Source of the DNA: Psococerastis gibbosa
Taxonomy: Eukaryota > Arthropoda > Insecta > Psocodea > Psocidae
Direction of reading: 5' to 3'
DNA: 64,000 nucleotides
Assembly: GCA_963971405.1 (NCBI GenBank)
Contig: OZ020489.1
Coordinates: 19,370,290 to 19,434,289 of the forward strand
The position numbers and the translations under genes were made by a program. Positions within the stretch are counted from its first letter, which is position 1. The number at the start of each line of letters is the position of its first letter. The notes below the pieces were generated by a model. It did no database searches. It was given only the letters and a program-made list of their open reading frames with translations, and was not told the origin of the DNA. Positions 20,691 to 63,677 of the stretch are shown piece by piece.

Positions 20691-21040
20691 CCAATTCGTT
20701 AGGTTGGTACACTTGTCAGAGACGACAGCGTAAAATCTGCACTGCCCTTCGTTTGGGGACCTATATCAGCGGGGTCATGAGTCAGCACAACCCCAGCAAT
20801 GGCCACTCTCATGTAAGATTGTGACAGTTAAAGTGGTGTTCGTTGGAGGCTGTGTCATAATCGGGAGGCGTGGAAGACTCAGGTGTTGCCGTAGGTAGTT
20901 GTACTCTGTGACGTAAGCGCTCTTTAAATACCTTGTTTATGATAGTATGCATGCTCATTTCAAATTAGACTACTTTCCGCTCCCCTTTTTTTGTAATGCG
21001 GAGTTTGGGAAGCTGCTTTAATTATGCTGTAATAAAAATA
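20691..21040. other. Noncoding stretch
   Basis: Nothing recognised. It is slightly GC-richer than its neighbours, with no open exon. Confidence 0.3.
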
Positions 21041-21910
21041 AGAACCGGTCCGAGTTCACTCGAACATGCTTTCCAATTTATCAAAATTATTAGATAGAGA
21101 AAATTAGTAATTTTATGGCAAATATTTTTCCTATGGTTAAATTTCCGATATCTCGGGAGGGGGGGGGGGCGGTTGTCCACCTGACGTCACTGGAAGTGAG
21201 GTAAATTCTCGATAGGTCAAACAAACACATTAATTACCACACAGCAATAATGGCAGGGCATGCAATGCATTTGAGCGCGAATTTTCAATCATTTTTTTCA
21301 AAAAATAATTTTTTGGGCAAAACCAAATATTTTTTTGGGAAAGCAACCTAACCGGTTTCGTTACTCAATTTAACACCTAAAACATGCTTGAAGGTAGAAA
21401 TCATCGATAGAAAGGTTTCGCATTTTTTAGTCATTTTTTCATTAAAATTTAGTTATTTTTATTTTTTTACCCCCAGAAGCAAACTATCAAGGGGCAAGCG
21501 ACCCCCCGCATTTTGTCAACATTAATAACGACTACAATCTACGAGAATTTAAAAGAAATCGTTGGAGCCGTTTTTGAGAAATAGTTTTTTTGGAGTTTTT
21601 CGAAAATAAAACCCCCCCAAATTGAGTTAGCCCAAAAAAAAAAAAAATGGTCCCGAGGTATGATTTTTGTGAACCTACATGCCAAATTTCACTCAAATCC
21701 ACTGAGTAGTTTGCCCGGAAATCGACGAACAGACAGACCGACAGACCGACAGACCGACAGACCGACAGACCGACCGACAGACAGACATTTTGTAAAAACC
21801 ACTTTTTTGGGTTCCTGGGACCTCAAAACGTGTAAATCCGTTGAAATCTCGGAATCGAAAATTTCGACCATCACAAAGCTTTCCTTATACTATGTATAAA
21901 TTGGAAAGCA
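21041..21910 (+). mobile_element. CGGTCCGAG element, full-length plus copy
   Basis: It starts AGAACCGGTCCGAGTTCACT and CATGCTTTCCAATTTATC; a G run and GTTGTCCACCTGACGTCAC follow. The middle is AT-rich with TTTTTACCCCCAGAAGCAAA and GGGGCAAGCGACCCCCC. A CAGACCGACAGAC array is at 21730-21785. It ends CTTTCCTTATACTATG and TATAAATTGGAAAGC. The copy at 58489 is almost identical, down to the same TTCACTCG variant, apart from a short internal deletion. Confidence 0.88.
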
Positions 21911-21954
21911 AAAATAGGTAATACAGCGTGTTGACTGTTGAGTGCAGTAGATAG

Positions 21955-31124: not shown

Positions 31125-31513
31125 TTAGGCGTCCATTCCACCGACCGGCTAGGGCTATTTACGAAAACAGTGACGTGGTAGCAGACATTCAAGACTTAGG
31201 CGGGGTTTCCACCGACCTCGCATTGCAGAATTGACGGAAATGTTTATTTTCCTCTATGCCATAGTTAAAATTGATCAATGATCATACAGTAAAATCACAA
31301 ACAAACTAACTAAAATTAAAAAATGGCGTCATGGGATATGTTAAGTACAAACATTTTAATAGATTTCTATAAATATAAAAATTCTAATTCCGTCAATGTC
31401 ATTTGCATTCTGCAATGCGAGGTCGGTAGAAACGCCACCTAAGTCTTGAATGTCTGCTACCACGTCACCGTTTTTGTAAATAGCCCTAGCCGGTCGGTGG
31501 AATGGACGCCTTA
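31125..31513. mobile_element. MITE-A, complete copy
   Basis: TTAGGCGTCCATTCCACCGA with GGCTAGGGCT at the left mirrors AGCCCTAGCCGGTCGGTGGA and ATGGACGCCTTAA at the right. The arms pair over about 120 bases (GTGACGTGGTAGCAGACATT, GACCTCGCATTGCAGAAT), around a 140-base middle containing TGATCAATGATCA and AAAATGGCGTCATGGGATAT. No coding capacity. The left arm has lost an AATGCAAATGAC segment. Confidence 0.9.
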
Positions 31514-32673
31514 AAGAAGGTAACTAATTATTAAAGTTCCTTTTCAACTACCTGGCTATCTCTTCATATGTGGTGAACTGAAAACTTTTACCATGAAGAT
31601 CATCATTTCCGATCCAGAATCTCTATAAACATTCAACGAAAATATTGCCGTCCATCCGTGCATCAATCATCGTGAATCAATATTTTAAACTGTTATTTTT
31701 GGAGGAATATATTTTACTTTACTTTACGTTTTTTTGAATGAAACGTAAACTATCAGCTATTCCCGATACATCGTACAAAGCTTTTTACATTACTTTACAG
31801 TAATACTTGACCTTAACAATAAGACAAGTCAGTTTCCTCTATAGCTATTTTGTTGGCAGTCACCAGAAAGGGTACTAGGTATAGCATTAAAAATTTGGAA
31901 ATTCGAGTAACAAAATGAATGGGGACAACACAGCGTCTTGGTGCCCATTTCTCAATTTTTAGGGAAACTCCTTGCATCTTCTTCTTCAAGTTACAGCCGG
32001 ATTTCTATCTTTGTATTTCAGCCCGGCTTTCCTCAGGATCTCAAACAACTTTTTCCTTGCATCTAGTCTACCTATACGCTGTAGGGGCTGTAGGGAATGT
32101 GTCGTGAAAGCTGCTAATAGGCTATATTTTGGACTATAATTTACATAATAACTAAACTTCGTTCATACACCGCTAGCAAAAAGTCCTTGATATCCCTTGA
32201 CCTTCGACCCCCTCAGGCTTGTGGTATTTCAACTCAACCTGAAAGTGCAAGGTCCAGGAACCAATAGACCATCATCACTACAATCAACTGATGCAAAACT
32301 GGTCGATTAAATTGGTTTTGTTAAGCCTAAATTACAATCCATTGACCTTCTGTCAATATTTATGATATGATTCATTTTATATGGAGGCTTTAATTTTCTG
32401 GCATTACTTTCATAGCATTTTAGAACGAAAATTAAACCTAATTTGTGAGCTTACAAGGTCCAAATATTCGTAACTCTAATAATGCTATCAAAATATTTTT
32501 TTTTTAAAATGAAACCTTTTAAAGTGAGGTAATATTGGTGATAGTCAGTGGCGGAGCGTGGGATAATTGCGAGTGTAATGCTTGTGCCATTAAAGTTTAA
32601 ACATTTTATATAGCATGTTTTTATATTTAAGAAGTTCTATCTTCTTGAAAAGTAAAAATTTGAAAACAAAAAA
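31514..32673. other. Noncoding stretch
   Basis: No supported exon, RNA or repeat family. Confidence 0.3.
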
Positions 32674-33370
32674 AGAGAACCAGACCAACACATTACCACA
32701 CAGCAATACTGACAGGGCACGCAATGCATTTGAGCGTGAATTTTCTATCATTTTTTCAAAAAAACATTTTTTTTTTTACAAAACCAAATACTTTTCTGGG
32801 AAAGCAACCTGTCCGGTTTGGCTACTCAACTTAACACCTAAAACATACCTGAAGGTAGAAATCATCGATAGAAAGGTTTCGCAGAAAATTATTTCTTAGT
32901 CATTTTTCATTAAAATTTAGTTATTTTTATTTTTTTACCCCCAGAAGCAACCTATCAAGGGGCAAGCGACCCCCCGCATTTCGTTAACATTAATAACGAC
33001 TACAATATGTGTGAATTTAAAAGAAATAGTTGGAGCCGTTTTTGAGAAATAATTTTTTTAGACGTTATTTTGGAGTTTTTTGAGAATAAAACCACCCCAA
33101 ATTAAGTTAGCCCCAAATAAAAAAAAAATTGTTCCGAGGTATGGTTTTTTGTGAACCTACATGCAAAGTTTCATCAAAATCGACCGAGTAGTTTGCCCGG
33201 AAATTGACGCACAGACAGACAGAACGACAGACAGACAGACAGACATTTCGTAAAAACCACGTTTTTGGGTTCCTGGGACCTTAAAACGTGTAAATCCGTT
33301 GAAATCTCGGAATCGAAAATTTCGACCGTCACAAAGCTTTCCTTATTCTACGTATAAATTGGAAAGCAAA
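32674..33370 (+). mobile_element. CGGTCCGAG element, 5'-truncated plus copy
   Basis: It lacks the CGGTCCGAG end and G run, and starts at AACACATTACCACACAGCAA and GGGCACGCAATGCATTTGAG. It then runs through ATCATCGATAGAAAGGTTTC, TTTTTACCCCCAGAAGCAA, the CAGACAGACAG array (33213-33243), and ends TATAAATTGGAAAGCAAAA. Confidence 0.85.
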
Positions 33371-34060
33371 AACATTTGAATGCTTACGTGAGGAGATTCT
33401 TAATTTTCATAGACTGCGTTGATAACATCATGCTCATACAATCTTATTTGTTCGCGGCTTTCTATAGATTTCAACGAAGCTCATAATACATTCTAAGGAT
33501 TTGTTGAGTGTAATGTGGCATTACCCGCCTTACATGCACATTCCGCCCCTGGTCATAGCTTGTCGTTGCATCTTGTTGCAACTTTTGATGTAGAGCAACA
33601 TGTTTACAGTACCATGTGCATCACCTTGCCAAAAACCCTCTCTGAGCGCAAACGCTTGCTGATCATGATAAGCAGTAGAATCCGGGCTGATGGGCCGTGG
33701 TCGATCTTATCCGCCTATCATAAATTCATAAATAGGTACCTAATGCAAATCTCATACTGGTAACAGGTGTACCAATGCCTTGGGCAGTGTACCAATGCCT
33801 TGGACAGTGGGAAGTGGTGTTGGCCTAACCTCAGCTTCTTATATATGCAAATGGGATTTTTATTCGTGATTCATCCAGGCGGAAAGCTTGGCTATTTTTC
33901 TCAACCATGACGACCAGCAACTTTGCCTTCATTTGGAATCACATCTCTACTTTCATCTGTGCTGCGTGACCGGCGTGATGGCGCATATTTTCCGGTGCGA
34001 TACGGGAGATTTAGGAAAAGCTTAGTATTCTTCCTGACATGCGACCAAATTAGTCTTTCT
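33371..34060. other. Noncoding stretch
   Basis: There is a local duplication at 33768-33807 (GTGTACCAATGCCTTGG repeated twice). No exon is recognised. Confidence 0.35.
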
Positions 34061-37265: not shown

Positions 37266-37467
37266 ATGTGTTTTTAAATGTCTTCGAAACACGTTCAATT
37301 GATGAATTATTTTTATGTCTCTGGGGAGTCTTGTAGTGCGTTAGTCCTACGTACTTGGCCTGTCTTTGTATGTATGACAGTCTCGTGAGGAATACTTGCT
37401 ATGTAGTGGCTGTGTTTCCATGTATCTAGTGATGTCATAGTGCAGAACATGCGGTATTCTGTGCTTG

Positions 37468-38273
37468 TTGCTTTCCAATTTATGCGTAGCATAAGGAAAG
37501 CTTTGTGATGGTCGAAATTTCCGATTCCGAGATTTCAACGGATTTACACGTTTTGAGGTCCCAGGAACCCAAAAAAGTGGTTTTTACGAAATGTCTGTCT
37601 GTCTGTCTGTATGTTCATCTATTTCCGGGCAAACTACTCGGCCGATTTTGATGAAATTTTGCATGTAGGTTTACAAAAATTATGCCTCGAGACTATATTA
37701 TTTTTATTTTGGGCTAACTCAATTTGGGGGGGGGGGTTTATTCTCAACAAACTCCAAAAAAGTCTAAAAAAATTATTTCTCAAAAACGGCTCCAATGATT
37801 TCTTTTAAATTCACATATATTGTAGTCGTTATTAATATTATCGCTTGCCCCTTCATAGTTTTCTTCTGGGGGTAAAAAAATAAAAATAACTAAATTTTAA
37901 TGAAAAATGACTAAAAAATAATTTTTCTGCGGAACCTTTCTAGCGATGATTTCTACCTTCAGGCATGTTTTAGGTGTTAAATTGAGTAACGAAACCGGAC
38001 AGGTTGCTTTCCCAAAAACTATTTGGTTTGGGCAAAAAAGTGTTATTAAAAAAATGAAAATCACTCATGCACGCTCAAATGCATTGTGTGCCCTGCCATT
38101 ATTGCTGTGTGGTTATGTAATGTAATGTCTGACCTATCTAGAATTTACTTGACCTCCAGTGACGTCAGGTGAACAACCCCCCCCCCCCCAGAGATGTCCG
38201 AAATTTAACTACATTTTCTCTATCTACTAATTGATAAATTGGAAATCATGTTCGAGTAAACTCGGAGCGGTTC
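37468..38273 (-). mobile_element. CGGTCCGAG element, full-length minus copy
   Basis: Ends: TTGCTTTCCAATTTATGCGT and TAAATTGGAAATCATGTTCG followed by AACTCGGAGCGGTTCC. It carries the CTGTCTGTCTG array (37594-37612), a G run, a C run (38177-38189) and GGTGTTAAATTGAGTAACGA in the usual order. Confidence 0.88.
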
Positions 38274-38928
38274 CATTTAAATGTATGAGCTGTTGCTATT
38301 AGGATGTATAACTGTTTTATTGTGGGTATTTTGGTCTCAGGGATAATAGTGTATTGCTTGTCCGGGATTTAACGATTTTTTAGGTAAATATTTAAACCTA
38401 GGAAAGTTTGATTTCACACCCGGATGGTTGTAAGATACCCCTTATTGGAAAAAAATTGAAAATAGCAATATAGTAGATTTTTACGCATTTTTGACTACCA
38501 TTATTGTTTGCTTATAACTTTAGTAAACGTATTTATGTAGCCTATGCATTTTTTAAACTGTTATTCTCTTTAATACATATATTCTTATTTGGCATCATCC
38601 TCTTTAGATGAGCGCATTCTAATGCGTGAGTAACGACTTGATACATTATAATTTAGCTCTCCAGACGATTTCCTCGTCCCTATGCCAAGGCTGAAAGGTC
38701 TACAATGTCTTTGCAACTATATTGTACCTAAACTGCAACACTACAATAGTCTTGTAATATTATAGTATAATCAATTGCAGTTGTACTTGTTTTGTATTGT
38801 TTCTTGAATTTCCCCAATACCCATATTCTCATCATTATGGCAACAATCTGTAAATTGCCCCTAAACTCAACTCAAATCAGCCATCTTTACATTACATTTA
38901 ATTTATGTACTCAAAAAAATATTTTCTT
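38274..38928. other. Noncoding AT-rich stretch
   Basis: Nothing recognised. Confidence 0.3.
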
Positions 38929-43992: not shown

Positions 43993-44092
43993 CTGATTCC
44001 CAATTGGGTCTTAGTGATGAACATTTACTTGTGTCAGTGACGTAGATAAGGGGCTCCTCCCCAAATGGGAAAATGTAGAACGACATGAACTA

Positions 44093-44479
44093 TTAAGGTG
44101 CCCATTCCATTGACCGGTTAGGGCTATTTCCAACAACGGTGACGTGGTAGCAGACATTCAAGACTTAGGTGGCGTTTCCACCGACCTCGCATTGCAGAAT
44201 TGACGGAAATGTTTATTTTCCTCTATGCCATAGTTAAAATTGATCAATGATCATACAGTAAAATCACAAACAAACTAATATTAAAAAATGGCGTCATGGG
44301 ATATGTTAAGTACAAACATTTTAATAGATATCTATAAAAAGAAAAATTCTAATTTCTGTCAATGTCATTTGCATTCTGCAATGTGAGGTCGGTGGAAACG
44401 CTACCTAAGTCTTAAATGTCTGCTACCACGTCACCGTTGTTGGAAATAGCCCTAGCCGGTCAATGGAATGGGCGCCTAA
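44093..44479. mobile_element. MITE-A, complete copy
   Basis: TAAGGTGCCCATTCCATTGA with GGTTAGGGCT mirrors AGCCCTAGCCGGTCAATGGA and ATGGGCGCCTAAA. The same 140-base middle is present (TGATCAATGATCATACAGTA, AAAATGGCGTCATGGGATAT). The left arm again lacks the AATGCAAATGAC segment, as in the 31125 copy. Confidence 0.9.
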
Positions 44480-44944
44480 AGAGAGGTTTTTTTTTAAGGA
44501 CTTCTTATGGACCCAGACCTACTTATAGTGGCCCTTAGGTTGTTTGGCCAATACCAACGAGCCTATGGATATAAGACAAGCTTACCATTAACGCAATGAA
44601 ACAGGCGAAGACATGACTTAACCAAGTACAGGTACGGGTCACGACATGAACTAACGCGGGTTGCTGTATTATTTGCAAGATCTAAATGATTTTCGGTTCA
44701 GCGTAGTCTCGGGCCTTCTCCCGCGGCAAGAATTTGATAGCTAGAGGCAATCTGGTCCGGCCCCCGCCCCCAAAATATTCTAGATGTACGCCACTGAATT
44801 GCTGACATATATCAACGTGTAAGAGACCCTTCCATTGATAGGTTGTGGCCCAATGGACAGCCCTATACTTCTTACATTTCCCGTGAAATTAGATTCTGTA
44901 AGGTTTTTCCCCTTTCGTTTGTCTCGTAATAAAGTAAATTCGTG
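44480..44944. repeat. Noncoding stretch with R1 copy
   Basis: R1 in plus orientation, partly deleted, lies at about 44490-44635 (CAGACCTACTTATAGTGGCC, GACAAGCTTACCATTAACGC, GACTTAACCAAGTACAGG). The rest is unremarkable. Confidence 0.5.
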
Positions 44945-49075: not shown

Positions 49076-49090
49076 ATGTACGGATTTACT
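49076..49090 (+). repeat. Left copy of the 15-base direct repeat flanking the Penelope-like composite
   Basis: ATGTACGGATTTACT occurs here and at 52577-52591, just outside the composite. It matches a diverged version of the CATGTTCGAGTAAACTCGG end of the invaded element, so it is read as the target-site duplication. Confidence 0.75.
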
Positions 49091-49145
49091 TATAATTGTA
49101 GAAAGAATGAGACGCAACTGATCCACAATAAAATATATTAAACGT

Positions 49146-49174
49146 GACCGGTTTCGGTAAAATACCATCATCAG
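49146..49174 (-). ncRNA. Hammerhead-ribozyme-like core, minus arm
   Basis: The minus strand reads CTGATGA, a short hairpin GGTA-TTT-TACC (helix II), GAAA, then CCGGTC. This is the conserved order CUGAUGA, helix II, GAAA, helix III, cleavage triplet GUC. Helix III is only the self-complementary CCGG, which would favour a dimeric form. Penelope-like elements are known to carry such minimal hammerheads. Activity is inferred. Confidence 0.65.
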
Positions 49175-49237
49175 ACATAAACAAATAAATGAAACACGCC
49201 TTTATATACATACCAAGGAGGGGTGGGGGATACAATA

Positions 49238-50137
49238 TTAATTGGTAGGAGGTGGGCGGGGTTGGGAACATAACATTAGGAGTGGGGAGCAATTTTGGAA
49301 AATTATCTCGTTGGTTAGATTTTCGTTATTGTGTAAAGCTTTATTTATTTCTATACTCTCTAACCTATCGAGAATTTTTCCCTTGTTAGAACAGTGCATC
49401 AGCTGGAAGTTGTCAAAATCGCAAGTATGGCCATTGTCGTGCAAGTGATTGGCGAACACCGAATTGCAATCGTTTTTACCGATTGCCCTTCGGTGCTCGT
49501 TCAACCTATCTCTGAAGTTGCGTCCACATTGACCAATGTAGCTAGCATCACAATCCTTACAGCTGAGTTTATACACACCCGACATCCTAAACTTGTCAAC
49601 TTTGTCCTTACAATTCATGAGCAGTTTACTTAGATTAGGAGGGCAAGTGTATGAAACCCTACTGTTAGTGATGCACTGTTCTAACAATCTACCTATCTTA
49701 ATACTAATATCTCCTATGTAGGGAATCTTCAAGTAGCGGTGTTCCTCCTTCGTCATATTTTGGCCCGCGTATACTTGTCGAGCGATGTACTTCAATCCAT
49801 GTTTCCTGATAAACCTCGTCGCGAATTCCTGGGTATAACCGTTGTTAGTGGCGATCTCTAGAATAGTGTTCCTTTCCTGCCTGAAGTGTTCTGCTGACAT
49901 GGGGACGTTATGAAGCCTGTGAGACATCGCATGGAACGCTGCTGCCTTATGAGCCGGGGGATGGTGTGACGTCGCTGGAATCACCGTGTCCGTATGTGTA
50001 GGTTTCCTGAAAATGTTAAAAAGGAGGGCAGTATCTGATCTAGTAATTGTGAGGTCTAGGAAGTTCAGGGAGTTGTTAACTTCAATTTCCATGGTGAATT
50101 TAATACTAGGGTGAAGATCATTGAGAATACTGGGCAA
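49238..50137 (-). pseudogene. Penelope-like RT/GIY-YIG protein, C-terminal 299 codons (frameshifted copy)
   Basis: It reads EVNNSLNFLDLTITRSD, FNIFRKPTHTDTVIPA, then a GIY-YIG nuclease GVYKLSCKDCDASYIGQCGR, and ends SQPRPPPTN. The frame opens only after the RT catalytic YVDD, which sits upstream in another frame. One residue differs from the plus copy (RFIRKH versus RIIRKH). Confidence 0.85.
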
Positions 50138-50499
50138 AAACTGTCTAGTTGACGACGAGAACCCCTAAAAATGCAAAGATATCGTCGACGTACCGTTTCC
50201 AAAGTTTGACATGTCCTAACAAAGGTGTGGGGGTTTGAAATAATTTGGTTTCAATATGATTCATAAAAATTTCCGCTAGAAGAGGGGACAAAGACGAGCC
50301 CATGGCTAAACCTGATTTTTGACTATAGAAAGTATTATTAAACTGAAAGTAATTTTGATCTAAATCAACTTAAGAAGTTTGAGGGTCTCAGTTATAATAG
50401 CCTGAGGCACCCCCTTCCCCTTAAGCATCTCTTCGATAATACCTGGCAATTCAGAGGTTGGGACATTAGTAAATAAGGAGGTAACGTCAAAGGAAACTA

Positions 50500-51281
50500 G
50501 GGAACAGTTGTGGGCCAGGAGATGGTGCTGGAGTTGATTTATTAAGTCTAAATATTTATATAATTAAGTCTAAATATATTTAGACTTAATAAATCAACTC
50601 CAGCACCATCCTCTGGCCACAACTGTTCCCTAGTTTCCTTTGACGTTACCCTCCTTATTTACTAATGTCCCAACCTCTGAATTGCCAGGTATTATCGAAG
50701 AGATGCTTAAGGGGAAGGGGGTGCCTCAGGCTATTATAACTGAGACCCTCAAACTTCTTAAGTTGATTTTAGATCAAAATTACTTTCAGTNNNNNNNNNN
50801 NNNNNNNNNNNNNNNNNNNNNNNNNNNNNNNNNNNNNNNNNNNNNNNNNNNNNNNNNNNNNNNNNNNNNNNNNNNNNNNNNNNNNNNNNNNNNNNNNNNN
50901 NNNNNNNNNNNNNNNNNNNNNNNNNNNNNNNNNNNNNNNNNNNNNNNNNNNNNNNNNNNNNNNNNNNNNNNNNNNNNNNNNNNNNNNNNNGGGAACAGTT
51001 GTGGGCCAGAGGATGGTGCTGGAGTTGATTTATTAAGTCTAAATATTTATATAATTAAGTCTAAATATATTTAGACTTAATAAATCAACTCCAGCACCAT
51101 CCTCTGGCCCACAACTGTTCCCTAGTTTCCTTTGACGTTACCTCCTTATTTACTAATGTCCCAACCTCTGAATTGCCAGGTATTATCGAAGAGATGCTTA
51201 AGGGGAAGGGGGTGCCTCAGGCTATTATAACTGAGACCCTCAAACTTCTTAAGTTGATTTTAGATCAAAATTACTTTCAGT
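50500..51281. other. Assembly junction: 291-base direct duplication around a 200-N gap
   Basis: Bases 50500-50790, immediately before the gap, and 50991-51281, immediately after it, are the same 291-base sequence. They differ only by a few homopolymer or swap differences (GGCCAC versus GGCCCAC, TTACCCTCC versus TTACCTCC, CCAGGAGATGG versus CCAGAGGATGG). Equal length and placement at the contig ends point to an unmerged contig overlap. Confidence 0.88.
50791..50990. other. Scaffold gap, 200 N
   Basis: Exactly 200 unknown bases, a typical placeholder length. It interrupts the second arm of the Penelope-like inverted pair. Confidence 1.
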
Positions 51282-52384
51282 TTAATAATACTTTCTATAG
51301 TCAAAAATCAGGTTTAGCCATGGGCTCGTCTTTGTCCCCTCTTCTAGCGGAAATTTTTATGAATCATATTGAAACCAAATTATTTCAAACCCCCACACCT
51401 TTGTTAGGACATGTCAAACTTTGGAAACGGTACGTCGACGATATCTTTGCCATTTTTAGGGGTTCTCGTCGTCAACTAGACAGTTTTGCCAGTATTCTCA
51501 ATGATCTTCACCCTAGTATTAAATTCACCATGGAAATTGAAGTTAACAACTCCCTGAACTTCCTAGACCTCACAATTACTAGATCAGATACTGCCCTCCT
51601 TTTTAACATTTTCAGGAAACCTACACATACGGACACGGTGATTCCAGCGACGTCACACCATCCCCCGGCTCATAAGGCAGCAGCGTTCCATGCGATGTCT
51701 CACAGGCTTCATAACGTCCCCATGTCAGCAGAACACTTCAGGCAGGAAAGGAACACTATTCTAGAGATCGCCACTAACAACGGTTATACCCAGGAATTCG
51801 CGACGAGGATTATCAGGAAACATGGATTGAAGTACATCGCTCGACAAGTATACGCGGGCCAAAATATGACGAAGGAGGAACACCGCTACTTGAAGATTCC
51901 CTACATAGGAGATATTAGTATTAAGATAGGTAGATTGTTAGAACAGTGCATCACTAACAGTAGGGTTTCATACACTTGCCCTCCTAATCTAAGTAAACTG
52001 CTCATGAATTGTAAGGACAAAGTTGACAAGTTTAGGATGTCGGGTGTGTATAAACTCAGCTGTAAGGATTGTGATGCTAGCTACATTGGTCAATGTGGAC
52101 GCAACTTCAGAGATAGGTTGAACGAGCACCGAAGGGCAATCGGTAAAAACGATTGCAATTCGGTGTTCGCCAATCACTTGCACGACAATGGCCATACTTG
52201 CGATTTTGACAACTTCCAGCTGATGCACTGTTCTAACAAGGGAAAAATTCTCGATAGGTTAGAGAGTATAGAAATAAATAAAGCTTTACACAATAACGAA
52301 AATCTAACCAACGAGATAATTTTCCAAAATTGCTCCCCACTCCTAATGTTATGTTCCCAACCCCGCCCACCTCCTACCAATTAA
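51065..52384 (+). CDS. Penelope-like element protein: reverse transcriptase plus GIY-YIG endonuclease (5'-truncated)
   Basis: An open frame of 439 codons without an initiator. The RT begins just before motif A, SLVSFDVTSLFTNVP (catalytic Asp). Then come motif B SGLAMGSSLSPLLAEIFM, motif C YVDDIFAIF, and LNFLDLTITR, which follows the palm in this superfamily. A linker leads to the GIY-YIG endonuclease (about residues 325-400): GVYKLSCKDCDASYIGQCGR, with a CxxC pair and FANHLHDNGHTCDF supplying histidines. RT fused to GIY-YIG defines Penelope-like elements, which insert without an AP endonuclease. The N-terminal part (fingers and upstream domain) is absent, so the copy is defective although its frame is clean. 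Confidence 0.92.
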   Translation: MYLDLINQLQHHPLAHNCSLVSFDVTSLFTNVPTSELPGIIEEMLKGKGVPQAIITETLKLLKLILDQNYFQFNNTFYSQKSGLAMGSSLSPLLAEIFMNHIETKLFQTPTPLLGHVKLWKRYVDDIFAIFRGSRRQLDSFASILNDLHPSIKFTMEIEVNNSLNFLDLTITRSDTALLFNIFRKPTHTDTVIPATSHHPPAHKAAAFHAMSHRLHNVPMSAEHFRQERNTILEIATNNGYTQEFATRIIRKHGLKYIARQVYAGQNMTKEEHRYLKIPYIGDISIKIGRLLEQCITNSRVSYTCPPNLSKLLMNCKDKVDKFRMSGVYKLSCKDCDASYIGQCGRNFRDRLNEHRRAIGKNDCNSVFANHLHDNGHTCDFDNFQLMHCSNKGKILDRLESIEINKALHNNENLTNEIIFQNCSPLLMLCSQPRPPPTN

Positions 52385-52576
52385 TATTGTATCCCCCACC
52401 CCTCCTTGGTATGTATATAAAGGCGTGTTTCATTTATTTGTTTATGTCTGATGATGGTATTTTACCGAAACCGGTCACGTTTAATATATTTTATTGTGGA
52501 TCAGTTGCGTCTCATTCTTTCTACAATTATAAGTATGATGAAGTTCCACGAAGTCACTTTGGAGAATCTCACTATG
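51066..52576 (+). mobile_element. Penelope-like retroelement, plus arm of head-to-head pair
   Basis: It starts ATATTTAGACTTAATAAATC, the mirror of the left arm's inner end, with about 20 bases of spacer between arms. It holds the open RT/GIY-YIG frame to 52384, a 3' noncoding part with a G/T/A-rich GTATGTATATAAAGGCG block and the hammerhead-like core, and ends just before the 15-base repeat at 52577. The last 45 bases or so have no counterpart in the minus arm. Confidence 0.88.
52448..52476 (+). ncRNA. Hammerhead-ribozyme-like core, plus arm
   Basis: CTGATGA (52448-52454), hairpin TGGTATTTTACC (52455-52466), GAAA (52467-52470), then CCGGTC (52471-52476). The core is identical to the minus-arm copy. 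The flanks TTATGT before and ACGTTT after could form four base pairs of helix I. Confidence 0.65.
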
Positions 52577-52591
52577 ATGTACGGATTTACT
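52577..52591 (+). repeat. Right copy of the 15-base direct repeat flanking the Penelope-like composite
   Basis: ATGTACGGATTTACT, identical to 49076-49090. It is followed by CGTTCTTATTATC, which may be the continuation of the invaded element. Confidence 0.75.
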
Positions 52592-52943
52592 CGTTCTTAT
52601 TATCATTATTGAAGGGCTTTTATGGACATATGAAAGACTTAGAAATTAGCCGCATAAGTTTAGCGTAGGCATTTTTCACATATACACACGGACAATCTAT
52701 TCTAATTAACATCGTTGAAGAGAAGGTGAAAGGACGAGGGTGTGTGGCCAGCAGTTGTACGACCACACCCGCCTTACGCAAGCACAGTGTGGGAGGCGAT
52801 GTTGTTCACCTTTCGAAAGGGTGGCTTTCAATGTCAATAAACACAGGTGTACGAAGTGTGGCACCGAACAACAGTGGCGGTTCCTTTCGCTAAAAGCACT
52901 GAGCCATCAGGGGCGTCTAATTAGAAATTAAGTACAAGCATTA
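52592..52943. other. Noncoding stretch
   Basis: Nothing recognised; a 63-codon ORF (52740-52931) with four cysteines has no family match that I can see. Confidence 0.3.
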
Positions 52944-53756
52944 TTGCTTTCCAATTTATACGTAGTATAAGGAAAGCTTTGGGATGGTCAGAATCTCAGA
53001 GAGCTCCGAAAGCTCCGAGATTTCAACGGAATTACACGTTTTGAGGTCCCAGGAACCAGAAAAAGTGGTTTTTACGAAATGTCTGTCTGTCTGTCTGCCG
53101 CTCTGTCTGTCGCTCTGGCTGTTCATCGATTTCCGGGCCTCGGGACCATTTTTTTAATTTTGGGCTAACTTAATTTTGGGGGTTTTATTCTCAAAAAACT
53201 CCAAAAAAACGTCTAAAAAAATTATTTTTCAAAAACGGCTCCAACGATTTCTTTTAAATTCTCATATATTCTAGTCGTTAGTAATGTTAATAAAATGCGG
53301 GGGTCGCTTGCCTCTTGATAGTTTGCTTCTGGGGGTAAAAAACTAAAAATAACTAAATTATAAAGAAAAATGACTAAAAAATAATGTTTCTCGCAGCGAA
53401 ACCTTTCTATCAATGACTTCTACCTTCAGGCATGTTTTAGGTGTTAAATTGAGTAACAAAATCGGACAGGTAGCTTTCCCAAAAAAGTATTTGGTTTTGA
53501 GCATTTTTTTTTTTTTAATGATAGAAAATTCACGTTCAAATGCATTGCGTGCCCTGCCATTATTACTGTGTGGTAATGTGTTTGTCGGACCTATCTAGAA
53601 TTCACCTTCCAATGACGTCAGGTGGATACCCCCCCCCCCCCCCCGAGATATCCGAAATTTAGCAAAAGGAAAATTATTTACCAGAAATTACTCATTTTCT
53701 CCATCTATTAATTGATAAATTGGAAAGCATGTTCGAGTAAACTCGGACCGGTTCTT
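52944..53756 (-). mobile_element. CGGTCCGAG element, full-length minus copy
   Basis: It has both ends, TTGCTTTCCAATTTATACG and GGAAAGCATGTTCGAGTAAA then CTCGGACCGGTTC. The CTGTCTGTCTG array is at 53080-53120 and a C run at 53628-53644. The stretch between the array and GGGCTAACTTAATTTTGG is shortened. Confidence 0.88.
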
Positions 53757-54086
53757 TTTATTGGTAAAAGGTGATGGCAGTGGTATAAAATTAATTAGCA
53801 AAGGGTTAGTTAGGCTTTCATTGTACATGTAAGTCTAAAGGGTTAGTTGGACTTACATTACCTATTATGTTAGTGGCAGACACTCATCGAACATTTAGGT
53901 GGAACCCGTTTTCAGGTGAAGGGGTGACAGCGAGGTTTCAATCTGGAAAATGGTAGTTCGAATCCTCAAGAGGATCGGATTTACTCAATAATTGTGGAAA
54001 GAATACAAGAGCAATGAATCAATCATCCAGAAACCACCATCAGCCAATATCACGACGACACCATCACCCTTCTGATCATCAACCTT

Positions 54087-57700: not shown

Positions 57701-60700
57701 CTATCCCAAAGCACTGAATTAATCGATGACCTTTCATATTCTAGACCGGTCAGACCAACACATTACCACTATAATAATGGCAGGGCACGCAATGCATTTG
57801 AGCGTGAATTTTCTATCATTTTTTCAAAAAAACATTTTTTGCCCAAAACCAATACTTTTTTGGGAAAGGAACTTGTCCGGTTTCGTTACTCTTTTTAACA
57901 CCTAAAACTTGCCTCAAGGTAGAAATCAACGATAGAAAGGTTTCACAGAAAAATTATTATTTACTCATTTTTCATTTAAATTTAGTTATTTTTATTTTTT
58001 TAAACCCAGAAGAAAACTATCAAGGGGCAAGCGACCCCCCGCATTTTATCAACATTAATAACGACTACAATATATGTGAATTTAAAAGAAATCGTTGGAG
58101 CCGTTTTTGAGAAATAAATTTTTAGACGTTTTTTCGGAGTATTTTGAAAATAACCCCCCCCCCCCCAAATTGGGTTAGCCCAAAATAAATAAAATGGTCC
58201 CGAGGTATGATTTTTGTGAATCAACATGCCGAATTCCATAAAAATCCACTGTGTAGTTTGCCCACAAATCGACGAACAGACAGACCGACAGACCGACAGA
58301 CAGACAGACATTTCGTAAAAACCACTTTTTTGGGTTCCTGAGTCCTCAAAACGTGTATATCCTTTGAAATCTCGGAATCGAAAATTTTGACCATCACAAA
58401 GCTTTCCTTATACTGCGTATAAATTGGAAAGCAATAAAAAACAACAACCTTAGGACTACTTTGTTACAAAACAAACAATCAAACAAAAAGAACCGGTCCG
58501 AGTTCACTCGAACATGCTTTCCAATTTATCAAAATTATTCGATAGAGAAAATTAGTAATTTTATGGCAAATATTTTTCCTATGGTTAAATTTCCGATATC
58601 TCGGGGGGGGGGGGGGGGGGGTTGTCCACCTGACGTCACTGGAAGTGAGGTAAATTCTCGATAGGTCAAACAAACACATTAATTACCACACAGCAATAAT
58701 GGCAGGGCATGCAATGCATTTGAGCGCGAATAATTTTTTGGGCAAAACCAAATATTTTTTTTGGGAAAGCAACCTATCCGGTTTCGTTACTCAATTTAAC
58801 ACCTAAAACATGCTTGAAGGTAGAAATCATCGATAGAAAGGTTTCGCATTTTTTAGTCATTTTTTCATTAAAATTTAGTTATTTTTATTTTTTTACCCCC
58901 AGAAGCAAACTATCAAGGGGCAAGCGACCCCCCGCATTTTGTCAACATTAATAACGACTACAATCTACGAGAATTTAAAAGAAATCGTTGTAGCCGTTTT
59001 TGAGAAATAATTTTTTTAGACGTTTTTTTGGAGTTTTTTGATAATAAAACCCCCCCAAATTGAGTTAGCCCAAAAAAAAAAATTGTCCCGAGGTATGATT
59101 TTTGTGAACCTACGTGCCAAATTTCACTCAAATCCACTGAGTAGTTTGCCCGGAAATCGACGAACAGACAGACAGACCGACAGACAGACATTTTGTAAAA
59201 ACCACTTTTTTTGGTTCCTGGGACCTCAAAACGTGTAAATCCGTTGAAATCTCGGAATTGAAAATTTCGACCATCACAAAGCTTTCCTTATACTACGTAT
59301 AAATTGGAAAGCAAAAATAAAAAAATATTGGATGAATCTGCAGCATTTACTTTCTGGGCTAAGCCCCTGAAGACACACCGGTCCGAACATAACCATATCA
59401 TAACATGGAATAGATTAGATAGTGTGCTTCTGATAAGGCGGCATCATATGAATTTTCGCCCTATATTTCTAACATCCATTCAACAAGCGTTAAGAAATGT
59501 CAATACTAGCTGTTCCTGTGTAGCTTATTAAATAGAGATATTTCAATGTTTTTGCGTAGTTGTCGATTGTACGGTATACATGAAAAGGCAGCCATATAGC
59601 CAGTGGCGTAAATAACTTCTGCAAAGAATTGTAGCTGGAGTTGACCCATGAGAACTAATTAGAACGGGGCTGGTCAGCTGGTGGGCCGTAGTGGAAACGA
59701 GCTTGATGATACAGACAGCCAGACACAGAGACAGACACACAGACAGACGGACGTTTCTTCTTCAATAGTGGCAGACGTCTATGTTGACGGCTTGACTTGA
59801 GCACGATCTACCGTGTTTTCATGCTCCTGATTGTATTAGTATTTATTACAGTAAAGCAGATCAATTTATTAAAGAGGCATGGCTACTGCTAATCGGTCTT
59901 ATTATAAATATAGTGCTGGACATCTGAATAGGAGGCAAGCTGAAGCGTAATCCTAGTCTCGACAATGCCTGTACCTACAGTGTCACTGTTATGACAGCCT
60001 GAATCGCCTGGAGGCGCTTTTTATATATAAAAAAAAAGGTCTGTGCATTGACAGTCCTGCCAATGCTACTTTGACTGAGATTTAGTAGCTTCATGTTCCA
60101 GAAAACAGTATTCTAGATTAGTCTAGATTAGTCTAGATTAGTCTAGATTAGTCTTTCTGTGCCAAAAGAAAAGAAACTTCTTTGTCTTTCCGTAGCCTGG
60201 CCGTTATTAAAAATATTGGTTCGTGGCCTAATTGTGTATCTTTCAGCCTCCTTTGGCCAAAGAGTCTGCCTCCACATCTTTCTAACTTTTGTCACATTTT
60301 CATCTTGTAGTTCGAATCACAAGACGTGTTGCTCCCGTGGCACAGACCTCAGCACCACAGCACGCCGTCCCTGGAGCTCGTGTCTACAACGACTACCACA
60401 ACCTCAGAAGATGACGGACCCCCGCCGTACCATGCCTACACGGCGTCCGACACCGACTCTGCACGCTCACAGAGGTAATCTAACGTCTGGCGCAGCAAAC
60501 AATTTCAAAACGTTGTCAGCATTGGAAAGTAAAAGCTAAAAGCAATAATGTAGGTACATAGGCTACAATGAAGAATGACCAAATTTAAAGAAGAAGTCAA
60601 GAACGTGGGTTTGCGTCTTGGTGGGTTATTTTTCGTCAGGTTTAAGGTAGGTACCACGAACGTTTGTGCTATAAAGTCCCGACACTACACGGCATGGCTA

Positions 60701-62348
60701 CGCAATCAAGCATGGGCCGCCGTTCAGTACTCCTAACTCGTAGCACCCAACTTAAAATCTTAAATAAGACACATAAAACATATCAATACCGAGATGGACA
60801 TACAATGATGATCCGTTTATATGCATGGTTAAAAAACGCATTCATCAGTGGCAGGTCAATAATAATTGACACTTTGGTAAGTCTTCAAAACTTGCTGCAA
60901 AATAACAAAACTATTAGGTAGTTACTAATTGAAGAACCGGTCCGAGTTTACTCGAACATGCTTTCCAATTTATCAATTAGTAGATAGAGATAACGAGTTA
61001 TATCATAGTAAATAATTTTTCTAAAACTCCCTTCTATCTAGTGTATTGGAGCATGAATTTTCTATCATTTCTGCAAAAAATAATTTTTTACACAAAACCA
61101 AAAACATTTTTGGGAAAGCAATCTAATCGGTTTTGTTACTATATTTAACACCTAAAACATACCTGAAGGTAGAAGTCATCGATAGAAAGGTTCCGCAGAA
61201 TAATTATTTTTTAATCATTTTTCATGAAAATTGAGTTATTTTTTATTCTTTTACCCCCAGAAGTAAAACATCAAGGGGCAAGCGCCTCCCGCATTTTATT
61301 AACATGAAAGACGACTACAATATATGTGAATTTAAAATATATCGTTGGAGCCGTTCTTGAGAAATAATGTTTTTAGACGTTTTTTTTTTTAGCTTTTTGA
61401 GAATAAAACCCCCCAAAATTGAGTTAGCCCAAAATTAAATTTTTTTTCAGAGGTATAATTTTTGTGAACCTACATGCCAAATTTCAGCAAAATCCACCGA
61501 GTGGTTTGCCCGGAAATCGGTGAACAGACAGAGCGACAGACAGAGCGACAGAGCGACAGACAGAGCGACAGACAGACAAAGCGACAGACAGGCAGACAGA
61601 CAGACATTTTTTTAAAACCACTTTTTTGGGTTGCTGGTTCCTCAAAACGTGTAAATCCGTTGAAAACTTGGAGTCGAAAATTTCGACCATCACAAGGCTT
61701 TCCTTTTACTACGTATAAATTGAAAAGCAAAAATGAGCACCATCAACAGAATGTTTTCTTTTTAGGACCAATTGTGTGCGAAAACGTGGCCGCAACCGAC
61801 ACAAGGGTCGTTCAATAGACCCAGGACGACCTCTCAGTGATTCCCCAAGTAGCTCCAGTTTGTCCAGCCCAAACGAAACCTGTTATGGCTTTATGCGTAG
61901 GGCTATAGAGGTGAGTTAATAATTACGTTTAACCGTCTCAGCCGACAGCCATACCATGTTGAATCCATTAGAGCAGAGCATGTTTCAAACTGCGGCAAAC
62001 TTGGTAGTGTGCACAGCGTTGAGAGGGGAACATGGTGGGACATGATAACGCGCTGATACTATACCAGTCAGTCTACGTGCGTGACGAGTCCTGGTCACCT
62101 CCGATTTTATGCGACTTTACCATGTTCTAAAGTGGTTCGGAATCCACTATAACCAGGAGGTCCACCCTCTCCCCGAGGTGGTGCCCTTAGGGTGCTCCTT
62201 CGGGTGCCTCAAGTTAACAAACAGACTTACTCCCCCCGCCAGGCTGACAGGGTTGCTTAAAGCAGAAATGCTGAAAGCAGGCGTTAGAAACAACAACAAA
62301 AACAACAACAAAAACAACAGCAACAACAACATCAACAACAACATCATC

Positions 62349-62383
<35 letters not shown>

Positions 62384-63677
62384 AAACAACAACAACAACA
62401 ACAACAACAAAATCAACAACATCAACAACACGTTTAACCGCCTCTTCATTTGCCTGCATGGGGTTGTCTCTCTGCCCGTGAACGAATATAAGCCAGTACT
62501 GTACAGTACAGACGAGAACAATGGTAGGGAAAGGATCTAGTAGCTTTCCTCTTTGGAAAAGGCACTTTTAATTAATTTGAATCATTTTTTTTCTTCAGAA
62601 ATTGACTGGGGGGAAACGGAATCGTAACTGGTTATTTACCGAGTCGTGGAGTGCCTGCACACAAGATCCATCCTGTCGGCGCCACGATCCTGATGGCTGT
62701 GAACAAAATGTAGAAGATATTCAGGTATAATCAGTCAGTTTATTAAATTAACAACGAATTTCATTGCATTAAAAAAAAAATTAAACTGTAAAATGAATAC
62801 CCGGATATGTTGAAAAATGTGTATTGAACAAACTGTGGTCATGCTATTCACATCAAATTTTTAACATACTGTAATTACCGATGGAAGGCATCGTTCACAA
62901 GAACTATTGAAATCAATGAAATCTGATTTCCCTTAGGATCTGCCTATAGAATTAAGAAGATTAGATGAAGAATCGGATCTTCCAGTGCGAAGACAGACGT
63001 TTGCTTGCTCCGCTAGAGCGTCAACGTCTTTGGAAAACTCAATGGGGCACAAATCCAAAAGTTTGACGGATATTTTATCTGTAAGTTTGCTTATACCATT
63101 ACAACATAAGTTTCCCATTGCATGCCAGAACATCAACCCTACAGAAATATATAGTACTTGTGTGTTAAATAGCTTAACCTAAGGCGCCCATTCCACCGAC
63201 CGGCTAGGGTTATTTACAAAAACGGTGACGAGGCAGCAGACATTCAAGACTTAGGTGGCGTTTCCATCGACCTCGCATTGCACAATGCAAATGACATTGA
63301 CGGAAATTGGAATTTTTCTTTTTATAGAAATCTATTAAAATGTTTGTACTTAACATATCCCATGACGTCATTTTTTAGTTTTAGTTTGTTTGTTTGTGAT
63401 TTTACTGTATGATCATTGATCAATTTTAACTATGGCATAGAGGAAAATAAACATTTCCGTCAATTCTGCAATGCGAGGTCGGTGGAAACCTCACCTAAGT
63501 CTTGAATGTCTGCTACCACGTCACCGTTTTTGGAAATAGCCCTAGCCGGTCAATGGATTGGGCACCTAAGCAGAATATAAAATTACCGGTTTTTCTTGTA
63601 TCTAACAGATTGCAAGAGGTAACATTGCTGAGCCGGACATAAATAAGGGAAGTGATGATTCTGTTCACATAGAGTAG
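54548..63677 (+). CDS. TRMT9B: TRMT9B/Trm9-like SAM-dependent tRNA methyltransferase (8 exons)
   Basis: Exons 54548-54725, 55683-55786, 56581-56772, 60311-60474, 61766-61910, 62599-62724, 62937-63080 and 63609-63677 join in frame with GT/AG borders into 373 codons plus stop. The N-terminal half is a class I methyltransferase: PRVEQFL, motif I LVCDVGCGSGKYLDVN, post-I VGVDRC, CDNLTLPFRDESLDAVLSI, IHHFATTDRR, RVLRIGGRLIITAWAMEQ and then FESQDVLLPWHRP. Yeast Trm9 and animal ALKBH8 methylate wobble-uridine carboxymethyl groups. TRMT9B is the ALKBH8-related paralog that, in animals, has lost the AlkB part. After the domain comes a low-complexity Ser/Thr linker, NETCYGFMRRAIE, NWLFTESWSACTQDP and two Asp/Ser-rich segments. 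The known C-terminal FMRYYHVF-type block of relatives is missing. Introns hold CGGTCCGAG elements and MITE-A. ALKBH8 itself is less likely, because the AlkB and RRM domains are absent. Confidence 0.88.
54726..55682 (+). repeat. TRMT9B intron 1, with R1 copy
   Basis: R1 in plus orientation lies at 55280-55505 (CCAACGACCCCATGGTTTTC, GTATGAATTTTTGGCCATTG, GCTACAAGCGATAATGG, CTTAACCAAGTG). Nothing else is recognised. Confidence 0.6.
55683..55786 (+). CDS. TRMT9B: TRMT9B-like exon 2 (SAM motif I)
   Basis: The acceptor TTCTTTTTTTAG precedes GCGSGKYLDVNPSVFNVGVD and RCKRLTEVARDKNNE. The donor is GTAGGG. GxGxGK is the SAM-binding loop. Confidence 0.9.
55787..56580 (+). repeat. TRMT9B intron 2, with a tRNA-like head near its 3' end
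   Basis: At 56410-56495, TAGTCCAGCGGTTAAGA (A-box-like) and GGGTTTGAATCCAG (B-box-like) are spaced as in tRNA genes. The arms do not pair well, so it is probably a tRNA-derived repeat and not a functional tRNA. A CGATCAGTA/CATCAGTATT direct repeat lies near 56050-56270. Confidence 0.45.
56581..56772 (+). CDS. TRMT9B: TRMT9B-like exon 3 (methyltransferase core)
   Basis: The acceptor TTTATTTTTTGCAG precedes VLRCDNLTLPFRDESLDAVL, IHHFATTDRR, LARVLRIGGRLIITAWAMEQ and RHRK. The donor is GTTAGC. It covers motifs II-III of the fold and is the most conserved exon. Confidence 0.92.
56872..57110. mobile_element. MITE-G end fragment followed by a palindrome with MITE-A-type terminus (copy 3)
   Basis: CCAAGGCCGTAGCCAGGATT (56872) is a lone MITE-G terminus. 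At 56952-57108, TTTCGGCGGGGATTCCACCG and CGTTTGTGTTTGGCAG mirror CTGCCAAACACAAACGAGGT and CGGTGGAATCCCCGCCAAAG. The loop contains TTAAAGACAGTCTTTAA. Confidence 0.8.
57111..57418. other. TRMT9B intron 3 segment
   Basis: Contains (AG)n at 57141-57152 and a G run; otherwise unremarkable. Confidence 0.4.
57419..58434 (+). mobile_element. CGGTCCGAG element, long plus copy with internal MITE-G-like piece
   Basis: It starts AGAACCGGTCCGAGTTTACT and ends TATAAATTGGAAAGCAATAA. After GTCCACCTGACGTCACTGG the segment at about 57600-57690 (CCATTCTATCTAGTGTACGC, GGGTCCGGAACC, GGACCCCCTCTGG) looks like half of a MITE-G. The CAGACCGACAGAC array is at 58276-58310. It lies in intron 3. Confidence 0.85.
58489..59314 (+). 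mobile_element. CGGTCCGAG element, full-length plus copy (near twin of 21041)
   Basis: The order and even private variants (TTCACTCG, CAAAATTATT.GATAGAG, GAATTTAAAAGAAATCGTTG) match the copy at 21041. It differs by a deletion of about 28 bases after GAGCGCGAA and a shorter CAGACAGACCGACAG array (59166-59190). It lies 54 bases after the previous copy, in the same orientation. Confidence 0.88.
59315..60310. repeat. TRMT9B intron 3, 3' part
   Basis: A short CAGACACAGAGACAGACAC array is at 59712-59745. Five tandem copies of a 10-base unit lie at 60112-60154 (separate entry). No further element or exon is seen. Confidence 0.45.
60112..60154 (+). repeat. 10-base tandem repeat (TCTAGATTAG)n
   Basis: About 4.3 perfect copies of TCTAGATTAG, ending in GTCTTTCTGTGCC, about 155 bases before exon 4. 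Confidence 0.95.
60311..60474 (+). CDS. TRMT9B: TRMT9B-like exon 4
   Basis: The acceptor ACATTTTCATCTTGTAG precedes FESQDVLLPWHRPQHHS, the family's signature after the catalytic domain. A threonine-rich, acidic low-complexity linker follows (DDGPPPYHAYTASDTDS). The donor GTAATC is weak but usable. The upstream intron is 3.5 kb. Confidence 0.88.
60475..60930. other. TRMT9B intron 4, 5' part
   Basis: No recognised element; an 85-codon ORF (60664-60921) has no motifs. Confidence 0.35.
60931..61731 (+). mobile_element. CGGTCCGAG element, full-length plus copy next to exon 5
   Basis: It starts GAAGAACCGGTCCGAGTTTA and ends ACGTATAAATTGAAAAGC. A long CAGAGCGACAGACAGAGCGA array lies at 61523-61605. 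The G-run segment near the start is deleted (AAATAATTTTTCTAAAACTC joins directly). The right end is 34 bases from the exon 5 acceptor. Confidence 0.88.
61766..61910 (+). CDS. TRMT9B: TRMT9B-like exon 5
   Basis: The acceptor ATGTTTTCTTTTTAG completes the split AG/G codon and reads TNCVRKRGRNRHKGRS, PLSDSPSSSSLSSPNET and CYGFMRRAIE. The donor is GTGAGT. The acceptor lies only about 30 bases after the end of a CGGTCCGAG element. Confidence 0.85.
61950..62290 (+). mobile_element. AAC-tailed SINE-like repeat, complete copy
   Basis: Head: CATACCATGTTGAATCCATT, ACTGCGGCAAACTTGG, GGTGGGACATGATAACGCGC. Body: GCGACTTTACCATGTTC, CCACTATAACCAGGAGGTCC, CCCCCGCCAGGCTGACAGGG, TTAAAGCAGAAATGCTGAAA, and the GCGTTAGAAAC start of its tail. 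Short 140-codon ORFs across it are chance. Confidence 0.7.
62291..62430 (+). repeat. (AAC)n microsatellite
   Basis: About 46 AAC units with scattered ATC and AAA interruptions, grown from the tail of the SINE-like repeat. It lies in intron 5, about 170 bases before exon 6. Confidence 0.95.
62599..62724 (+). CDS. TRMT9B: TRMT9B-like exon 6
   Basis: The acceptor TTTTTTTCTTCAG is followed by KLTGGKRNRNWLFTESWSAC and TQDPSCRRHDPDGCEQ. The donor is GTATAA. Phase is 0 on both sides. Its position matches the FRSWFFSRSLDE-like segment of relatives. Confidence 0.82.
62725..62936 (+). other. TRMT9B intron 6
   Basis: A short 212-base AT-rich intron with GTATAA donor and CCCTTAG acceptor and no element. 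Confidence 0.6.
62937..63080 (+). CDS. TRMT9B: TRMT9B-like exon 7
   Basis: The acceptor GATTTCCCTTAG is followed by DLPIELRRLDEESDLPVRRQ, SARASTSLENSMGHKSKSLT and DILS. The donor is GTAAGT. The exon is phase 0 at both borders. Confidence 0.8.
63180..63571. mobile_element. MITE-A, complete copy in the last TRMT9B intron
   Basis: TAAGGCGCCCATTCCACCGA with GGCTAGGGTT mirrors AGCCCTAGCCGGTCAATGGA and TTGGGCACCTAAG. Here it is the right arm that has lost AATGACATTGAC-type sequence, and the middle reads in the opposite direction from the 31125 copy. It ends 38 bases before the terminal exon. Confidence 0.9.
63609..63677 (+). CDS. TRMT9B: TRMT9B-like terminal exon (short C-terminus)
   Basis: The acceptor TTTTTCTTGTATCTAACAG precedes IARGNIAEPDINKGSDDSVH and IE, then TAG at 63675. 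It is in frame with exon 7. AATAAA follows at 63721. The usual C-terminal block of the family is not encoded here, so this may be an alternative last exon; a further acceptor is visible at 63975. Confidence 0.62.
   Translation: MARGNIAEPDINKGSDDSVHIE

Follow-up and report, generated by a model that had tools for sequence, protein, structure and literature searches.

Unlike ends of a head-to-head Penelope-like element insertion in Psococerastis gibbosa point to priming from both target strands

A 64,000-nucleotide stretch of the Psococerastis gibbosa genome (contig OZ020489.1, positions 19,370,290 to 19,434,289, forward strand; hereafter the window) contains a single 5'-truncated Penelope-like element (PLE) insertion, which takes the form of a head-to-head inverted pair enclosed by one direct target duplication. 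Element positions are given as ref, the numbering of one longer copy (L032:5247-8123) that was used unmodified. A tailless arm of 1466 bp occupies 49087-50552 on the minus strand (ref 2836 down to 1371), and a tailed arm of 1507 bp occupies 51070-52576 on the plus strand (ref 1371-2877). The arms are reverse-complementary, with 100% identity after rounding and a single mismatch, at ref 2110, across their outer 1052 nt. Measured on the longer copy, both are truncated at their 5' ends at the identical base, ref 1371. The two copies of the 15-bp duplication, ATGTACGGATTTACT, were located by sequence match on the plus strand at 49076-49090 and 52577-52591. The arm end also matches the last 4 bases (TACT) of the left copy, so a true duplication of 11-15 bp is possible. 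When pairs of random 30-mers were drawn from the window, 13 or more common bases were found in 2 of 1993 trials, as were 11 or more. The arms meet through a 26-nt spacer, TATTTATATAATTAAGTCTAAATATA, printed first at 50553-50578 and again, in unchanged orientation, at 51044-51069 (both plus strand). Only the plus arm continues into a 41-nt tail (52536-52576), which lies between the two outer end points of the family and corresponds to the known PLE tail (PMC11167929 and PMC3846280, available text). An earlier note on this DNA had described the two reverse-complement arms, their common truncation point and their shared outer 15-bp repeat, all of which hold. Its join of about 20 bases is actually 26 nt, and its extra 45 bases are indeed confined to the plus arm but number 41, the higher count having included 4 shared bases.

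The plus arm encodes a 439-amino acid open frame (51065-52384, plus strand), an N-terminally cut reverse transcriptase (RT) followed by a candidate GIY-YIG endonuclease. Its match to Pfam RVT_1 (8.7e-10, 39.1 bits) exceeds the cut-off of 29.6, whereas its match to Pfam GIY-YIG (E=0.0017, 19 bits) is under the curated cut-off of 22.6 and lies in the expected place after the RT. A PDB sequence search returned a lone match at E=0.41, unrelated by name, and nothing better. In the longer copy, ref 1-237 matches ref 2644-2877 plus 3 bases, forming a pseudo-long terminal repeat (pLTR), and the same is seen in L037 and L038. The RVT_1 match, the pLTR, the optional tail and the head-to-head form together bear out the PLE identity that had been proposed. 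A core-like motif near both arm ends, recognized by eye, is a candidate hammerhead ribozyme core; the copy in the minus arm is at 49146-49174 (minus strand), and that in the plus arm, CTGATGA...GAAACCGGTC, is at 52448-52476 (plus strand), with a predicted cut after 52476. An Rfam search of the locus returned no hammerhead match at E up to 1. The core does not emerge from plain folding, and the pLTR end folds no better than shuffled sequence (164 and 182 of 200 shuffles folded at least as well). Rfam matches at the palindrome centre (MIR8706, mir-7131 and others) are all under their gathering scores and were set aside as an effect of the long hairpin.

The centre of the palindrome contains the sole N run of the window, 200 bases at 50791-50990. 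The left contig carries the start of the plus arm (50579-50790, plus strand, ref 1371-1582), and the right contig re-reads the tip of the minus arm (50991-51043, minus strand, ref 1423-1371). Positions 50500-50790 and 50991-51281 are the same sequence in the same orientation, identical at 288 of 292 positions with the asymmetric spacer included. Because the sequence is the same on both sides of the run, down to the orientation of the spacer, we read the run as lying between two unmerged, overlapping contig ends, and the window coordinates as one dimer plus a repeat printing of its centre. Both the gap and the double printing had gone unnoticed when the locus was described as a simple two-arm object. 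Apart from ref 2110, every difference between the arms (indels, a TC/CT swap and ref 1789) falls within ~670 bp of the left contig's end; these differences and the minus-arm frameshifts close to that end are probably assembly errors.

The same kind of interruption recurs elsewhere in the genome. All eight N runs in 240,462 bases (the window, L029 and L031-L059, where L numbers denote loci) lie inside inverted PLE insertions, namely L029, L031, L032, L034, L036, L037, L045 and the window, and each is 200 bases long. A scaffold gap is the likelier reading of these runs because of their equal lengths and the overlapping sequence on both sides of the run in the window; the contig ends overlap in some loci and disagree in L034. 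The assembly appears to break at long near-perfect palindromes. The gap within the palindrome, the duplicated centre and the disagreement at L034 would also suit an assembly or library artefact in which one arm is the fold-back of a read. However, one asymmetric spacer, in unchanged orientation, is present at both contig ends in the window, the two arms have unlike 3' ends, and a direct duplication lies outside them. The same unlike-ended layout is also present at 11 loci without any N run (L033, L038, L039, L040, L041, L043, L044, L046, L051, L052 and L054). These data make an artefact very improbable.

To place the window among its relatives, the arms were compared with other copies of the family, a check that the earlier note had called for. 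In the 409-Mb genome, the arm gave at least 67 matches, the longer copy at least 79, the last 234 bases at least 42, and two inner slices at least 47 and at least 54. The DNA of 31 loci was examined, representing 29 distinct insertions after L041 was merged with L042 (C12:20442000 and C12:19175000) and L047 with L048 (C1:3139000 and C1:3470000). Each of these two pairs has identical stops, the same 40 bases on each flank and a common chromosome, and we read them as segmental duplications or duplicated assembly. Outside this count are C3:46388, C13:15605039, C1:6346469, C2:2185304 and C12:35213284, which are nearly identical to the family, and at least 14 further matches at 90-95% identity. The family's at least 29 distinct insertions are nearly all close to identical, and 24 of the 29 are head-to-head pairs like that of the window. 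Two others contain a short inner inversion with a single 3' end (L035 and L049), and three have a single arm (L047, L050 and L057). Members of this family usually take the form of an inverted dimer. In L037 and L038, the arms exceed one unit, consisting of a partial tandem plus a full unit; a tandem or circular RNA template would yield such arms.

The outer ends of these pairs follow a consistent pattern. Tailed ends consist of CTCACTAT plus a few bases, and tailless ends fall ~41 nt earlier, near ATAAG. Nineteen head-to-head loci have a standard start at each outer end, and 18 of them, the window included, pair a tailed arm with a tailless arm. With independent end types at 0.5, the probability of at least 18 unlike pairs among 19 would be 4e-5. 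The 24 pairs include six others: L053, which has two tailless arms; L056, with a tailed arm and an end near ref 2777; L055, L058 and L059, each with one outer end outside the stretch read; and L031, whose far end is cut off at ref 2428. Direct flanking repeats are present in all 18 unlike pairs, with lengths of 13 bp (n=9), 12 bp (n=7), 15 bp (n=1, the window) and 11 bp (n=1), some edge bases being ambiguous. Eight other insertions have both flanks read; six of them (L031, L035, L047, L049, L050 and L053) show no direct repeat >7 bp, and L056 and L057 carry repeats of 13 and 14 bp, respectively. A second standard end is therefore not strictly required for duplication. L057 (G000:C3:35161950-35162540) is a lone tailed arm of 312 bp. 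One arm of L056 (G000:C12:12145050-12145670) starts near ref 2777, 3' of the predicted hammerhead cut, and has 4-6 bases in common with the target. Other arms also end near that cut (L039 at 2778, L046 at 2771 and L041 at 2765), a suggestive pattern from which we conclude nothing, because shared or mismatched bases make the ends in L039 and L056 ambiguous.

We consider it probable that dual target-primed reverse transcription inserted an endonuclease-bearing PLE into the window in one event. In the proposed mechanism, the element endonuclease would make a staggered cut in the target, and the free 3' end of each target strand would prime a cDNA on the element RNA. The tail start site would serve one cDNA, and the tailless site, ~41 nt upstream, would serve the other. 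Because both cDNAs would be antisense, one on each target strand, joining of their growing tips would give a head-to-head product, and filling in of the stagger would leave the direct duplication. In the window, both cDNAs would have halted at template base ref 1371 and been joined through the 26-nt spacer. In the integrated product, each target 3' end runs into antisense element sequence that begins at an RNA start site. Dual priming is supported because this layout is the one expected if both cut ends primed on sense RNA, presumably at the same time, and the tips were then joined. Earlier work on a related element points in the same direction: in vitro, a purified PLE protein from Anolis cleaves both strands of the target and extends each of them, and it initiates reverse transcription at two adjacent sites within the RNA that bracket the genomic tail (PMC11167929, available text). 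The later insertion steps are left open in that text. The route from a nicked target to the inverted insertions typical of PLEs is unsettled, and the 29 insertions described here favour priming at both ends of the cut. Copying across linked templates, one of the routes suggested in the earlier note, fits best, and replication-fork template switching, another of its suggestions, is not needed to explain the window.

The third of those suggestions, a fold-back cDNA, fares less well. Self-priming is the published interpretation of head-to-head PLEs with palindromic junctions (PMC3846280, available text): the tip of a single cDNA, or of an antisense RNA in the Adineta vaga proposal, doubles back, and copying of that strand makes the second arm. 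Short inverted overlaps at the near-symmetric junctions of L045, L051 and L052 would suit it, and L053 indicates that fold-back products, or fold-back reads, do occur. L053 (G000:C14:41978480-41979510) has two tailless arms of equal length and no direct duplication, with inverted flanks of at least 34 bp; it may be a true fold-back copy that extends into the target or an assembly artefact from a folded read. The window shows the opposite arrangement, unlike ends and direct flanks. Since the 3' end of the template arm has to recur in a fold-back copy, whole-arm fold-back is rejected for the window. Fold-back copying can neither add nor remove a 41-nt tail and does not give direct duplications, but the ends are unlike at 18 of 19 loci. 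Many junctions also join distant positions, for example, ref 1456 with 2778 in L039 and 1641 with 2765 in L041. We therefore regard self-priming as an improbable source of the window. The unlike ends speak against it as a general route and for priming from both sides.

The identical truncation of the two arms raises the question of whether their stops are related. Recurrent stops exist elsewhere (ref 1641 in L041 and L044, 2606 in L056 and L059, and 2617 in L038 and L055), so the symmetry test permuted the real stops of tailed arms and other arms between loci, with stops ≤30 nt apart counted as near-symmetric. The main set comprised 15 pairs at 99% or more from the arm search with a placeable junction; C3:46388 was placed by coordinates alone, and L038 was paired only after its DNA was read. 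In this set, which omits the window, 4 of 15 pairs are near-symmetric versus 0.87 expected (p=0.007; p=0.013 when tandem arms are counted modulo one unit). Addition of L031 and L034 gives 5 of 17 (p=0.0009). Inclusion of the short loci gives 7 of 20 versus 1.25 expected (p=6e-5), or 2.47 expected when stratified by search (p=0.001). The 15-pair set is the least selected and gives the fairest figure because L052 and L053 were picked for symmetric-looking coordinates and a second search supplied the short loci L054-L059. L031 (far end cut) and L034 (contigs disagree) were omitted from the main runs, as were L036 (gap hides the junction), L035 and L049 (inner inversion), L053 (fold-back), the single-armed loci and the duplicates L042 and L048. 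L055, L058 and L059 were retained despite one outer end outside the stretch read. Symmetric truncation thus exceeds chance, as had been suspected for the window, which is the only locus in the test with both arms ending at exactly the same base. Among the slice-search matches listed, only the window arms start at ref 1371, and 10 other young-family arms read through it; the slice search does not support ref 1371 as a general RT stop.

The excess of near-symmetric stops hints that one broken RNA served both arms. From this excess and the one-of-each end rule, we infer that both cDNAs copied one RNA molecule. Two RTs, one on each cut strand, would start 41 nt apart on that RNA, and, if the RNA were broken, both would run off at the same 5' end. 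We propose this only tentatively, with the balance of probability slightly on the other side. If it is true, symmetric dimers mark where a single template molecule ended, and a tailed-plus-tailless pair records that each of its start sites was used once. At these loci, the arm ends can be compared jointly with the duplications, junctions and shared variants, and they offer a way to test whether a single RNA supplies both sides.

The spacer in the window holds a second copy of the minus-arm tip, ATTAAGTCTAAA, which is the last 12 nt of the arm re-copied in antisense; 21 of 100000 shuffled spacers equal this match. The re-copy in L058 is weaker (9 nt; 2061 of 100000 shuffles), and no re-copy beyond that in shuffles is found in L029 or L056 (11711 and 2104 of 20000). 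An antisense re-copy needs a sense template and would suit an RT that reached the RNA end, slipped back and reached the end again. The main rival for the symmetric subset is a hybrid route, in which two target-primed cDNAs form as above but need not share an RNA; one tip snaps back over a few bases, and the short sense strand so made anneals to the other cDNA. This route explains unlike tails and hairpin-like overlaps together. However, the window, L029, L056 and L058 have spacers of 15-26 nt instead of hairpin overlaps, and the antisense re-copy in the window, as well as the weaker one in L058, is also at odds with it. We judge the hybrid route less likely than not.

Sequence variants provide a further view of the relationship between arms. 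In the window, a C>T change at ref 2376 is present in both arms and, among the compared loci, is otherwise found only in both arms of L036. Variants private to their own locus occur in both arms of L033 (2206), L045 (2190), L051 (2689), L034 (1353 and 2300) and L038 (2700), and the L044 variant at 2795, present in both arms, is found elsewhere only in L035. One-arm variants also occur (e.g., L040 at 2476, L052 at 2690 and L029 at 2713 and 2747), as would be expected from copying errors or later mutations. The variants common to both arms show a common source lineage, which need not be the same molecule. Two independent same-family insertions side by side, or later recombination between copies, would account for the presence of two arms but for nothing beyond it. 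The single direct duplication around the pair, the head-to-head orientation of 24 of 29 insertions and the shared rare variants make this the most remote of the explanations considered, and they uphold the proposal that the dimer arose in a single insertion event.

Several observations weigh against the dual-priming explanation. The centre of the window coincides with the N gap. The junction of L035 is at ref 1378, 7 nt from the stop of the window. The near-symmetric junctions of L045, L051 and L052 overlap by 4, 6 and 2 nt, like short hairpins, and such spacerless junctions could stem from short local snap-backs. Arms within a locus differ at 27 of 14,534 aligned bases, or 1.86 per kb (contig-end errors and L053 included), versus 2.61 per kb between loci, a modest contrast, so that the case for a common source depends on the shared variants. 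The in vitro assay showed no difference between strands in where synthesis starts and hence does not predict the one-of-each rule (PMC11167929, available text). Dual priming is also not obligatory because single-armed insertions exist (L047=L048, L050 and L057), L057 with its 14-bp duplication.

The element in the window is of a known kind, and its pairing rule is a useful mechanistic footprint. According to the available text of PMC3846280, Pen2a and Pen3a of Adineta vaga have an RT and a GIY-YIG endonuclease, the latter domain being matched below its cut-off here, as well as pLTRs with an inverted pLTR at the head, and palindromes at inverted junctions. They also carry an optional tail on one inverted pLTR and short duplications, but the tail is 31 bp, versus about 41 nt here, and the duplications are 8-10 bp, versus direct repeats of 11-15 bp; self-priming on an antisense template is proposed for them. 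The tail of Poseidon PAc of Anolis carolinensis is likewise defined by two neighbouring RT start sites (PMC11167929, available text). Cutting and extension of both target strands were seen in vitro with that element, and a hammerhead motif is reported there. The available text describes no paired tailed/tailless rule like that seen in our genomic insertions. The literature searched, which covered few subscription papers, yielded no account of a rule that pairs one tailed with one tailless arm, or of dual priming from a shared template, in PLEs, and we claim no priority.

LINE-1 twin priming also uses two primers at one target site, but it yields one element 3' end and an inverted 5' segment that is not duplicated. 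The window differs in having two element 3' ends, with ref 1371-2836 covered by both arms. L035 and L049 resemble the LINE-1 form: each has a short inverted 5' piece on one tailed arm, and no duplication was found; an opened hairpin would look similar.

A search for the empty site with the joined flanks found no intact unoccupied copy among the best 40 candidates in the assembly. The left flank is a dispersed repeat at 71-94% identity, other copies of which mostly end at or just past the duplication. One of these copies (C2:23884671, query 108-182) offers weak support for an unoccupied state. Elsewhere in the window, a dense dispersed repeat of ~0.7-0.9 kb, 72-90% identical, has eight copies in 64 kb (7994-8906, 21034-21916, 32681-33372, 37441-38279, 52940-53762, 57732-58444, 58482-59342 and 61039-61735), one of which begins ~350 bp to the right of the PLE. 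A second repeat family of ~390 bp, 92-94% identical, is found in both orientations at 31125-31521, 44090-44487 and 63180-63569.

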